From Bacteroidota bacterium (GTDB lineage Bacteria; Bacteroidota; Bacteroidia; B-17B0; Aurantibacillaceae): 34,066 nucleotides of DNA. The DNA lies in contig JAOQAF010000160.1 in the NCBI GenBank assembly GCA_025963735.1, positions 1 to 34,066 of the forward strand, given 5' to 3'. The translations under genes and the position numbers were made by a program. The notes beneath the pieces were generated by a model, which was given only the letters and a program-made list of their open reading frames with translations, had not been told where the DNA came from and searched no databases. The stretch's first letter is position 1, and every line of letters starts with the position of its first letter. Shown here in pieces: positions 16,413-19,196 of this stretch.

Positions 16413-16444
16413 TTTGTTTCTCAATTATATTCCACTTAAATTTG
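16413..16444 (+). promoter_or_regulatory. Promoter of the trp leader and trpFBA
   Basis: TTTG (16413-16416), exactly 20 nt, then TAAATTTG (16437-16444) is a perfect match to the Bacteroidota -33/-7 consensus. The leader-peptide ATG follows 8 nt after the -7 box, so the leader ORF would begin within a few bases of the transcript 5' end. Confidence 0.8.
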
Positions 16445-16452
16445 CCATAGAA

Positions 16453-16524
16453 ATGAAAACACATTTGAATACTAATTTATTTTGGTGGCCTGCTGATAGT
16501 TATAACCGTGAACACTGGCATTGA
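16453..16524 (+). CDS. trpL: trp operon leader peptide (23 aa, Trp-rich)
   Basis: A 23-codon ORF begins with ATG at 16453 and ends with TGA at 16522. It encodes MKTHLNTNLFWWPADSY followed by six more residues. Trp codons sit at 16483-16488 (two in a row) and at 16516. Three Trp in 23 residues, directly between a consensus promoter and a terminator hairpin ahead of trpFBA, is the hallmark of ribosome-mediated attenuation. Ribosomes stalled on the paired Trp codons would leave GTGAACACTGG (16508-16518) free; ribosomes finishing the ORF would cover it. No function beyond regulation is expected for the peptide itself. Confidence 0.85.
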   Translation: MKTHLNTNLFWWPADSYNREHWH

Positions 16525-16580
16525 TTTAATTCAATTTAAGATAAACTTTTAAAACCCACTGTTCACAGTGGGTTTTTTTA
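16508..16580 (+). promoter_or_regulatory. trp attenuator: alternative antiterminator and terminator
   Basis: Two exclusive structures can be drawn. The terminator is an 11-bp stem (16551-16561 with 16566-16576) with a TTCA loop and a further T-run to 16579. The antiterminator pairs GTGAACA (16508-16514) with TGTTCAC (16560-16566); after one C-C mismatch, TGG (16516-16518) pairs with CCA (16556-16558), which destroys the terminator's 5' arm. The antiterminator strand lies inside the leader ORF, 19 nt after the paired Trp codons. Low Trp should therefore favour transcription of trpFBA and high Trp should favour termination. The pairing is read from sequence; the regulatory outcome is inference from classical trp attenuation. 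Confidence 0.8.
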
Positions 16581-16604
16581 TTTTATAAACAGACAAAATT
16601 CAAA

Positions 16605-17228
16605 ATGACAATTAAAATATGTGGTATAAAAAACAAATGCAATCTTGATGAAATAGCAAGTTGTAGCCCCGATCTTTTAGGATTTATCTTTTATAAGAAA
16701 TCCCAAAGATACATGGCTGATAATCTTATTCCGTCTGACCTTCAGAATTTACCTGCTAAAAAAATCGGCGTCTTTGTTGATTCGTCGTTTGAAGAAATAG
16801 AAAAAATAACCTCTGAATATAAGTTAGACGGTATTCAGTTTCACGGAAATGAAAGTGTAGCCTTATGCAAAAACTTTTTAAAGCAAAATCTTATTCTTAT
16901 AAAAGCATTTTCTATTGACGATCAATTTGATTTTACAAAAACTAAAGATTATTCATTCTGTGATTATTTTTTGTTTGATACCAAAGGAGAAAATAGAGGC
17001 GGAAATGGGAAAACGTTTAATTGGGGAATATTAAAAAAATATGATCAAAAAGTTCCATTCTTTTTAAGCGGAGGAATAGGGCCCGAAAATATTTCTGAAA
17101 CTTTTCAATTAGAAGGCCTCAACCTTGTGGGAGTTGACCTTAACAGCCGACTTGAAGTCAGTCCCGGTATAAAAGATATTAATAAAGTAAAAAATATAAT
17201 TTCATTAATCAGACAACATACATTATGA
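16605..17228 (+). CDS. trpF: Phosphoribosylanthranilate isomerase
   Basis: 207 residues, usual length. It converts N-(5-phosphoribosyl)anthranilate to CdRP, a middle step of tryptophan synthesis. The general base Cys6 (KICGIKN) and general acid D125 ([18 protein letters not shown]) are present, as are the phosphate-binding [11 protein letters not shown] and [15 protein letters not shown]. It is the first structural gene after the attenuator, starting 25 nt past the terminator T-run. Its stop overlaps the trpB start as ATGA (17225-17228), indicating translational coupling. No trpE, trpG, trpD or trpC is present in the window. Confidence 0.95.
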
Positions 17229-18406
17229 ATCATACTGCAAATTCAAAAGGATTTTACGGCAATTTCGGAGGAGCTTTTATTCCTGAAATGTTATTTCCAA
17301 ATATTGATGAACTAAAACGTGTTTATCTTCAAACCATTAACGAGCCTTCTTTTCAGAAAGAGTTAAAAGTTTTATTAAACGATTTTGTGGGCCGTCCCTC
17401 TCCACTCTATTATTCAAGAAACCTTTCAGAAAAACACAGCGCCAACATTTACTTAAAGCGCGAAGACCTTAATCATACAGGCGCTCATAAGATCAATAAT
17501 ACATTAGGACAGATTTTACTTGCCAAACGTTTGGGTAAAAAGCGCATTATAGCCGAAACCGGCGCGGGTCAACATGGTGTAGCCACAGCTACCGTATGCG
17601 CTTTAATGAACATGGAATGTATAGTATACATGGGTAAGGTAGATACCGAAAGACAAATGCCCAATGTAGAAAGAATGAAGCTCTTAGGCGCAACGGTTGT
17701 TCCTGTTACTTCAGGAAGCCAAACGCTGAAAGACGCGACCAATGAAGCTATCCGCGACTGGATCAACAATCCTGAGAACACCCATTATATTATCGGGTCA
17801 GTTGTAGGTCCGCATCCATATCCCGAAATTGTAACCTTATTTCAGGCTGTGATCAGTAAAGAAATAAAAGAACAGGTGAAAGAAAAAACCGGTAAGGAAT
17901 ATCCGGATTATGTAATTGCCTGTGTTGGAGGAGGAAGCAACGCAGCAGGCGCTTTTTACCACTTCATTGATACGGATGTAAAATTAATCGCGGTAGAAGC
18001 CGCCGGCCTTGGCCTCCAATCGGGTAAGTCGGCCGCTACTACAGCGCTTGGACAACCCGGCATTTTGCATGGCAGTAAAACACTTTTAATGCAAACTGAA
18101 GACGGACAGGTTGTAGAGCCACATTCCATTTCGGCAGGATTAGATTATCCGGGTATTGGGCCCCTCCACGCGCATTTATTTGAAACGGGTAAAGCTAAAT
18201 TTTTGTATGTTACCGATGAAGAAGCGATAAATGCCGGTTTGGAACTTACCCGAACTGAAGGAATTATCCCTGCCCTGGAGTCGGCTCACGCACTTTCAGC
18301 GCTCAACCAGTTAACCTTTAAGAAAGACGATATTGTTGTTATTAATCTTTCGGGAAGAGGAGACAAAGACATGTTGACATATTTAGAACATTATAAAAAT
18401 ATTTAA
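17225..18406 (+). CDS. trpB: Tryptophan synthase beta chain
   Basis: 393 residues, canonical length for TrpB1. It joins indole and serine to give tryptophan using PLP. The PLP lysine is K89 in [14 protein letters not shown], the phosphate-binding glycine loop is [15 protein letters not shown], and [13 protein letters not shown] carries the catalytic glutamate. The C-terminal [15 protein letters not shown] contacts the cofactor region. The start is fixed by the 4-nt overlap with trpF, and trpA follows after 1 nt, so the alpha and beta subunits are made from adjacent positions on one mRNA. Confidence 0.98.
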
Positions 18407-18407
18407 G

Positions 18408-19196
18408 ATGAAAAACACAAATCGCATTCATAATTTATTTCAGACAAAGAAAAAAAATATTCTTTCTATTTTCTTTACGGCAGGTTTTCCTGAAATTTCT
18501 AATACCGTTGCTATCCTTAAAGAATTACAAAATTCTGGCGTGGATATAGTAGAAATTGGCATACCGTTTTCTGATCCTATTGCCGATGGCCCTGTGATTC
18601 AGCAAAGCAATCAGCGTGCTTTAGAAAATGGAATGACACTTAACCTTTTGTTTGAACAATTAAAAGACATTCGAAAAGAAATAAAAATTCCTATTTTATT
18701 AATGGGATACATTAACCCCGTTTATCAAATGGGAATTGAGAACTTTTTAAAAAAATGCAGCGACATCGGTATCGATGGTGTGATTATTCCTGATCTTCCT
18801 CCTGAAATTTATGAGGAACAATACAAGACTTTTTTTAAACAAGCCAATATTGCGAATGTTTTTTTAATTACACCAAAAACTTCTTCGGAAAGAATTACAT
18901 ACCTTGATTCACTTTCCGAAGGTTTTATATATCTTGTTTCCTCATCAGGAACGACGGGCAAGGACGCTCAGTTTCATGAAAAAGAATACCTGAGAATCCG
19001 TTCAATGAATTTACGTAATTCACTTCTGATAGGCTTCGGTATTTCCAATTATGCTTCATTTCAAAAAGCTTGCCATTCTGCCGATGGCGCCATTGTTGGA
19101 AGCGCTTTTATTAAGGCATTACAAAAAGAACGCCCAATTGAACAGATTACGCCATTTATCAATTCTTTATTAAAACCTCAAACCGTTACCGGTTAA
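18408..19196 (+). CDS. trpA: Tryptophan synthase alpha chain
   Basis: 262 residues. It cleaves indole-3-glycerol phosphate to indole, which passes through a tunnel to TrpB. The catalytic E49 and D60 are at their canonical positions in VEIGIPFSDPIADGPVIQQSN, after the FFTAGFP strand; LVSSSGTTG and GFGISN bind phosphate. Last gene of the trpFBA unit. Its stop codon overlaps the stop of the convergent metZ gene by 4 nt, and no terminator hairpin is visible there. Confidence 0.97.
   Translation: MKNTNRIHNLFQTKKKNILSIFFTAGFPEISNTVAILKELQNSGVDIVEIGIPFSDPIADGPVIQQSNQRALENGMTLNLLFEQLKDIRKEIKIPILLMGYINPVYQMGIENFLKKCSDIGIDGVIIPDLPPEIYEEQYKTFFKQANIANVFLITPKTSSERITYLDSLSEGFIYLVSSSGTTGKDAQFHEKEYLRIRSMNLRNSLLIGFGISNYASFQKACHSADGAIVGSAFIKALQKERPIEQITPFINSLLKPQTVTG

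Follow-up and report, generated by a model that had tools for sequence, protein, structure and literature searches.

We propose, at a probability of roughly 85%, that the leader preceding trpFBA in the window (the whole 34,066-nt stretch analysed here, contig C227 of a 3.47-Mb genome) acts as a ribosome-mediated transcription attenuator, controls trpFBA in response to charged tRNA-Trp and would antiterminate by default when no ribosome is present. According to this model, transcription would begin some 4 nt upstream of the leader ORF. When Trp is short, the ribosome would stall at the adjacent Trp codons W11 and W12 (16483-16488); with the first of them in the A site and an assumed footprint, its edge would lie near 16496, so that the antiterminator strand (segment 2, 16508-16518) would stay free to pair with the emerging segment 3 (16556-16566), the terminator would not form and trpFBA would be transcribed. 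With enough Trp, the ribosome would arrive at the TGA codon (16522-16524), cover approximately 16507-16535 and hide the antiterminator strand, and the terminator, whose efficiency is presumed, would form. Without a ribosome, the predicted outcome is antitermination because the protector hairpin (1:2) is missing in this leader. The model was built by sequence comparison and folding on the ORF, its Trp codons, the antiterminator (2:3) and terminator (3:4) pairings with their covariation, and the lack of a strong 1:2 hairpin.

Leader, promoter and the trpFBA locus

The features of the locus are collected in Table 1. A short ORF with Trp codons lies between the promoter and the operon, and an intrinsic terminator precedes the first structural gene. 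The preliminary description, made from the letters of the window, had placed here a 23-codon ORF with two adjacent Trp codons and a third later, which proved exact to the base, together with a promoter, an ORF start 8 nt after the -7 box and an 11-bp terminator with a T-run, all of which were found where it had put them.

Table 1. Coordinates of the leader elements and of the trp genes in the window
Feature	Position	Strand	Evidence or remark
Bacteroidota promoter: -33 TTTG 16413-16416, -7 TAAATTTG 16437-16444	16413..16444	+	
Leader ORF, 23 codons + TGA, MKTHLNTNLFWWPADSYNREHWH	16453..16524	+	homologue MNSQFSLNLFWWPKVVKNTRGQWH in G011
Adjacent Trp codons TGG TGG (W11, W12), putative sensing codons	16483..16488	+	invariant, 30/30 leaders
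Segment 2, putative antiterminator strand inside the ORF	16508..16518	+	covarying 2:3 in 30 leaders; ribosome-mask folds
Small hairpin ATTGA-TTTAAT-TCAAT across the stop codon	16520..16535	+	-2.4 kcal/mol; in block identical in G011
Intrinsic terminator 3:4: arms 16551-16561/16566-16576, loop TTCA 16562-16565, T-run 16573-16579	16551..16579	+	
trpF (phosphoribosylanthranilate isomerase)	16605..17228	+	PF00697, 4.3e-41
trpB (tryptophan synthase beta)	17225..18406	+	TIGR00263, 5e-178
trpA (tryptophan synthase alpha)	18408..19196	+	TIGR00262, 2.1e-69

The genes downstream of the attenuator, named by family models, follow in the order trpF, trpB, trpA. In a genus sample of 40 genomes, own genome included, only one congener, G011 (JACDDR010000032.1), carries trpFBA after holB, the same place as in the window; its trpFBA is preceded by the homologous leader MNSQFSLNLFWWPKVVKNTRGQWH* with a terminator of its own. 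In both genomes trpEGDC lies elsewhere, each time behind another Trp leader, which in the own genome (contig C234) encodes MNTNTVNKFWWCATNR*. This trpE leader (L111:961-1079) shows a one-base shift relative to all its relatives, with the stop inside the antiterminator strand and the peptide shortened to 16 residues. In nine other congeners trpD and trpF share a cluster, preceded by one leader of the type MKxxxVNNxWWWFxxxVVNS*. Family-wide, no more than 29 of 87 genomes have trpF, as do 25 of the 62 genomes of high quality, and many members of the Aurantibacillaceae may be Trp auxotrophs.

The -33 TTTG and the -7 TAAATTTG are separated by 20 nt. This consensus occurs once in the window, where 2.5 matches are expected by chance, so that the promoter match is not significant alone. 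Among the related leaders, 28 of 30 have TAnnTTTG 5-11 nt upstream of the ATG (mode 8-9). Because the -7 box of Flavobacterium psychrophilum covers positions -12 to -5 relative to the transcription start (PMC9723704), the window leader is expected to start near 16449, which would leave about 4 nt of 5′-UTR. Leaderless mRNAs are rare in that species (5.5%; PMC9723704). Judging from the aligned upstream regions, the near-leaderless start is a trait of the whole family and not a peculiarity of the window copy.

The TGG TGG pair was kept in all 30 aligned leaders. The third TGG codon (16516-16518) falls within the antiterminator strand; it is probably retained for pairing with CCA 16556-16558 and not for sensing, because a ribosome stalled there would hide the very strand that contains it. 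The window and G011 share a GCC after the Trp codons, a GGC near the stop, the peptide end WH* and an identical 18-nt block, GGCATTGATTTAATTCAA, spanning the stop codon. Conservation of the block and of the peptide end would also suit a terminated leader RNA or peptide that acts in trans beyond attenuation, in the manner of peTrpL of Sinorhizobium meliloti, for which the cited source speaks of trans action (PMC7298713); since the conserved bases are largely accounted for by 2:3 pairing, we regard such a role as improbable.

Pairing and covariation among related leaders

A covariance model built only from trpE leaders (R1) found 28 leaders across the family (L130-L157), mostly before trpE, all with TGG TGG and a terminator. 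They have a common layout: a near-leaderless ORF, adjacent Trp codons, last codons that form the antiterminator strand and a T-run terminator. The best R1 match in the window was the trpF leader (41.7 bits; the next scored 19.0), while in other genomes matches that lack a Trp leader reach 44 bits, and the weak matches L161-L171 carried none. The reciprocal model of the two trpF-type leaders (R2), run over 87 genomes, recovered the true pair; its other hits were trpE leaders, with E near 1e-8, and, at an equal level, ordinary gene ends that carry terminators. Because such gene ends score alike, the covariance models are no proof of homology genome-wide, and on this measure the homology of trpF and trpE leaders is not clear-cut.

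A nucleotide pattern for further WWP..WH leaders gave, besides the window and G011, four other hits, none with the layout; the match in L096/L122 was rejected as a leader since it lies inside coding sequence. A leader scan of L094, L097 and L098 found none. Across 79 other Bacteroidota trp loci no trpF-type leader was found, and only the trpD-led leader of L075 matched. One genome, G067, has a trpF without adjoining trpB or trpA (L160:3976-4715) behind its own Trp leader, MFNQLVNKFWWLSCNHMDS, with a strong 1:2 hairpin. Two further Trp leaders precede trpE, MNFSNVQNWWWFLKSSWDAQMA* (G047, L201, minus strand, 3293) and MKLFSLLNAWWWRKFYATAGALYLVKQ* (G059, L203, minus strand, 3089); their terminators are different, and long hairpins extend across the ORF.

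The terminator of the window is an 11-bp hairpin of -15.5 kcal/mol. As had been proposed, 16508-16518 can pair with 16556-16566; 10 of the 11 positions match, the exception being C16515 opposite C16559. Taken alone, this 2:3 helix has -13.5 kcal/mol, with p 0.005 against shuffled and 0.16 against synonymous sequence. The complementarity of the window copy is thus modest by itself, and it is the comparison across leaders that decides. In the alignment of 30 leaders (the window, G011 and the 28 family leaders), 93% of the cells of the 2:3 helix are paired, compared with 26-50% after a shift of the partner by 1-3 columns, and the covariation score is 0.196, compared with 0.03-0.09 after such shifts. 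The window copy itself carries a compensatory change, T16516-A16558 (U-A), where most leaders have C-G and G011 has U-G. Among the 21 leaders of the main type, pairing of the terminator 3:4 reaches 98%, and two-sided changes occur in it. The preliminary description had named relatives without the Trp codons, or without covariation, as outcomes that would speak against it; the relatives retain the Trp codons and both helices covary there, and on this comparative half of the test its proposal held. In nearly all leaders the antiterminator strand consists of the last ORF codons, directly 5′ of the stop, so that its location inside the ORF is, as far as the alignment tells, the norm of the family and not a peculiarity of the window.

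These data bear on two alternative explanations. The hairpin could be a plain constitutive terminator, for instance of the upstream holB, next to an ORF that is Trp-rich by chance: it has the form of an ordinary strong terminator, and the promoter match carries little weight on its own. Yet the combination of ORF, WW pair, end-of-ORF segment and terminator is seen again ahead of trpFBA in G011 and in the 28 family leaders, and 2:3 covaries, which makes this explanation very improbable. We consider equally improbable that another sensor (a T-box, a TRAP-like protein or a riboswitch) governs the terminator. A terminator in a trp context would suit any of them, but no Rfam family reaches its gathering score within the window, the leader is short, and nothing in it is conserved beyond what marks a translated attenuator.

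Protector hairpin and ribosome position

The 28 relatives have a 1:2 hairpin of -9 to -15 kcal/mol (z -1.8 to -3.5 versus synonymous controls), and in the 21 leaders of the main type it is 96% paired with two-sided changes. In contrast, a strong 1:2 was found neither in the window leader (-3.4 kcal/mol, z +1.6 versus synonymous controls) nor in that of G011 (-4.5 kcal/mol, z +1.3), the two trpF-type leaders from which a loss of the hairpin is deduced. The earlier remark that no separate 1:2 pairing could be seen therefore holds.

The leaders were also folded with a mock ribosome footprint placed on the RNA. With the ribosome at either Trp codon, the window leader had 9.9 expected 2:3 pairs, and with the ribosome at the stop 0.2; nearly all 30 leaders behaved likewise, with about 5-10 expected pairs on a Trp stall and essentially none at the stop, the exception to stop-codon masking being L147, which retains 3.7. 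Folding and covariation thus both indicate that the antiterminator excludes the terminator and is gated by ribosome position, and these folds support the earlier suggestion that ribosome masking alone may be the switch. Without a ribosome, 1:2 holds the strand in most relatives and 2:3 pairs are therefore near 0, versus 9.9 in the window and 9.0 in G011. Three trpE leaders likewise form 2:3 in the ribosome-free model folds: L139, L149 and, in part, L142. An untranslated window leader is thus predicted by folding to read through, the opposite of most relatives and of E. coli, where losing trpL translation raises termination. Of the phrase "classical ribosome-controlled trp attenuator" used in the preliminary description, ribosome control is supported by comparison and folding, whereas "classical" is a loose term, as the E. 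coli type includes 1:2.

In several trpE leaders (L130-L155), codons 3-9 can pair with bases just past the stop, with up to -13.9 kcal/mol, enclosing 1:2; this outer helix is out of register between sequences.

The alternative with most to say for it is a full four-segment attenuator in which 1:2 is merely weak or involves different bases, either GCCTG with CACTGGC or codons 4-9 with the stretch past the stop. A weak 1:2 of this kind, GCCTG/CACTGGC, is indeed present in the free fold of the window leader and accounts for its -3.4 kcal/mol, about 0.6 of segment 2 is occupied in the model before segment 3 emerges, and the GCC after the Trp codons and the GGC near the stop are retained in both copies. 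However, 1:2 is weaker in both than in random synonymous sequence, the G011 fold pairs different bases, the outer helix of the relatives is absent from the window and G011 (z -0.2 and +0.4), and in the model, which leaves out kinetics and factors such as NusA, any pairing of this sort gives way to 2:3. On balance we hold a four-segment attenuator to be unlikely, though it deserves more credit than the other alternatives. Our reading stays that of a leader switched by ribosome masking, with antiterminator and terminator as its competing structures.

Origin of the block and comparison with known systems

Between the attenuator and trpF of G011 lies a 42-codon ORF (L013:2267-2395) that overlaps the trpF start. 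Its first part is TrpD-like (against the first 20 residues of a TrpD in L027, identity is 60%) and its last part looks like the C-terminus of TrpD proteins, so it is probably a trpD relic with the middle deleted. If so, the attenuator would once have stood before trpD..FBA, an arrangement in which leaders are still found in L075 and in Pedobacter L090. In a quick TrpB tree, with SH-aLRT as its only support measure, the window and G011 form a pair (99) that falls among other Bacteroidota and is separated (97) from most congeners. The position of TrpB outside most of the genus and the trpD relic behind the G011 attenuator suggest that the trpFBA block was acquired laterally. We also considered an origin by simple duplication of the trpE attenuator of the genus and set it aside, as the relic and the tree favour import with a trpD..FBA operon. 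After trpA, and overlapping it, G011 carries a gene (L013:4963-6288) that we take from its sequence to be kynureninase-like and that is absent from the window; kynurenine recycling under Trp attenuation is possible in G011.

The fullest version of our reading is a three-segment near-leaderless attenuator that is on by default and terminates only upon completion of the leader peptide; it would stem from a trpD..FBA operon gained by lateral transfer and would work in the same cell as a trpE attenuator with a protector. This version is tentative, and we put it at a little under even odds. If it were true, the two halves of the Trp pathway would respond in opposite ways when translation initiation is blocked. 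The own genome would offer a natural pair of attenuators for Trp, with and without the protector hairpin, and what 1:2 contributes to protection, to pausing and to the behaviour of an untranslated leader could therefore be tested through nature's own deletion. The analysis also documents a near-leaderless Trp attenuator family in Bacteroidota, where attenuators are little characterised and leaderless mRNAs rare, and provides an alignment of 30 members, nearly all seemingly below Rfam thresholds (1 of 13 tested leader loci passed).

Ribosome-mediated Trp attenuation is a textbook mechanism, and the window leader shares with E. coli trpL (RF00513, Trp_leader) adjacent Trp codons, mutually exclusive antiterminator and T-run terminator, and ribosome position as the switch. 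It differs from trpL in having no clear 1:2 protector/pause hairpin, an antiterminator strand that lies within the ORF, a 5′-UTR that we estimate at about 4 nt, and trpFBA only under its control. Its score against RF00513 was 25.4 bits, under the gathering score of 41. Compared with the family trpE leaders (L130-L157), it has the same near-leaderless ORF, WW(W), antiterminator strand at the end of the ORF and terminator loop TGTTCA, but these have the strong 1:2 hairpin described above and end in (V/M)NS, whereas the window leader has none and ends in WH.

Within the phylum, the Bacteroid-trp RNA (RF01692) was predicted in 2010 as a cis-regulatory motif in Bacteroidetes (PMC2864571); it has been described ahead of the F. 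psychrophilum trp operon and likened to the E. coli leader (PMC6414381), and leader-peptide attenuation was also inferred in this species from transcriptome data (PMC9723704). RF01692 (gathering score 49 bits) gave no match at the window leader with E up to 10 and scored 26.4 bits on the trpE leader of the own genome; Rfam searches at gathering and relaxed thresholds placed nothing reliable over the window leader. Outside the phylum, trp leaders of Corynebacterium and Streptomyces have been described by antiterminator and terminator strands only, and an attenuator is predicted on each half of the split trp pathway of C. diphtheriae (PMC1262725). The ilvBNC leader of C. glutamicum starts 1 nt past the transcription start and is a near-leaderless attenuator (PMC11857589). 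The sequences of these actinobacterial attenuators are unrelated to that of the window, and the C. glutamicum ilvBNC model includes an anti-antiterminator hairpin (PMC11857589). The mechanism and the existence of predicted Bacteroidota Trp leaders are thus known already; the window leader would be a variant that keeps antiterminator and terminator but seems to have lost the protector hairpin.
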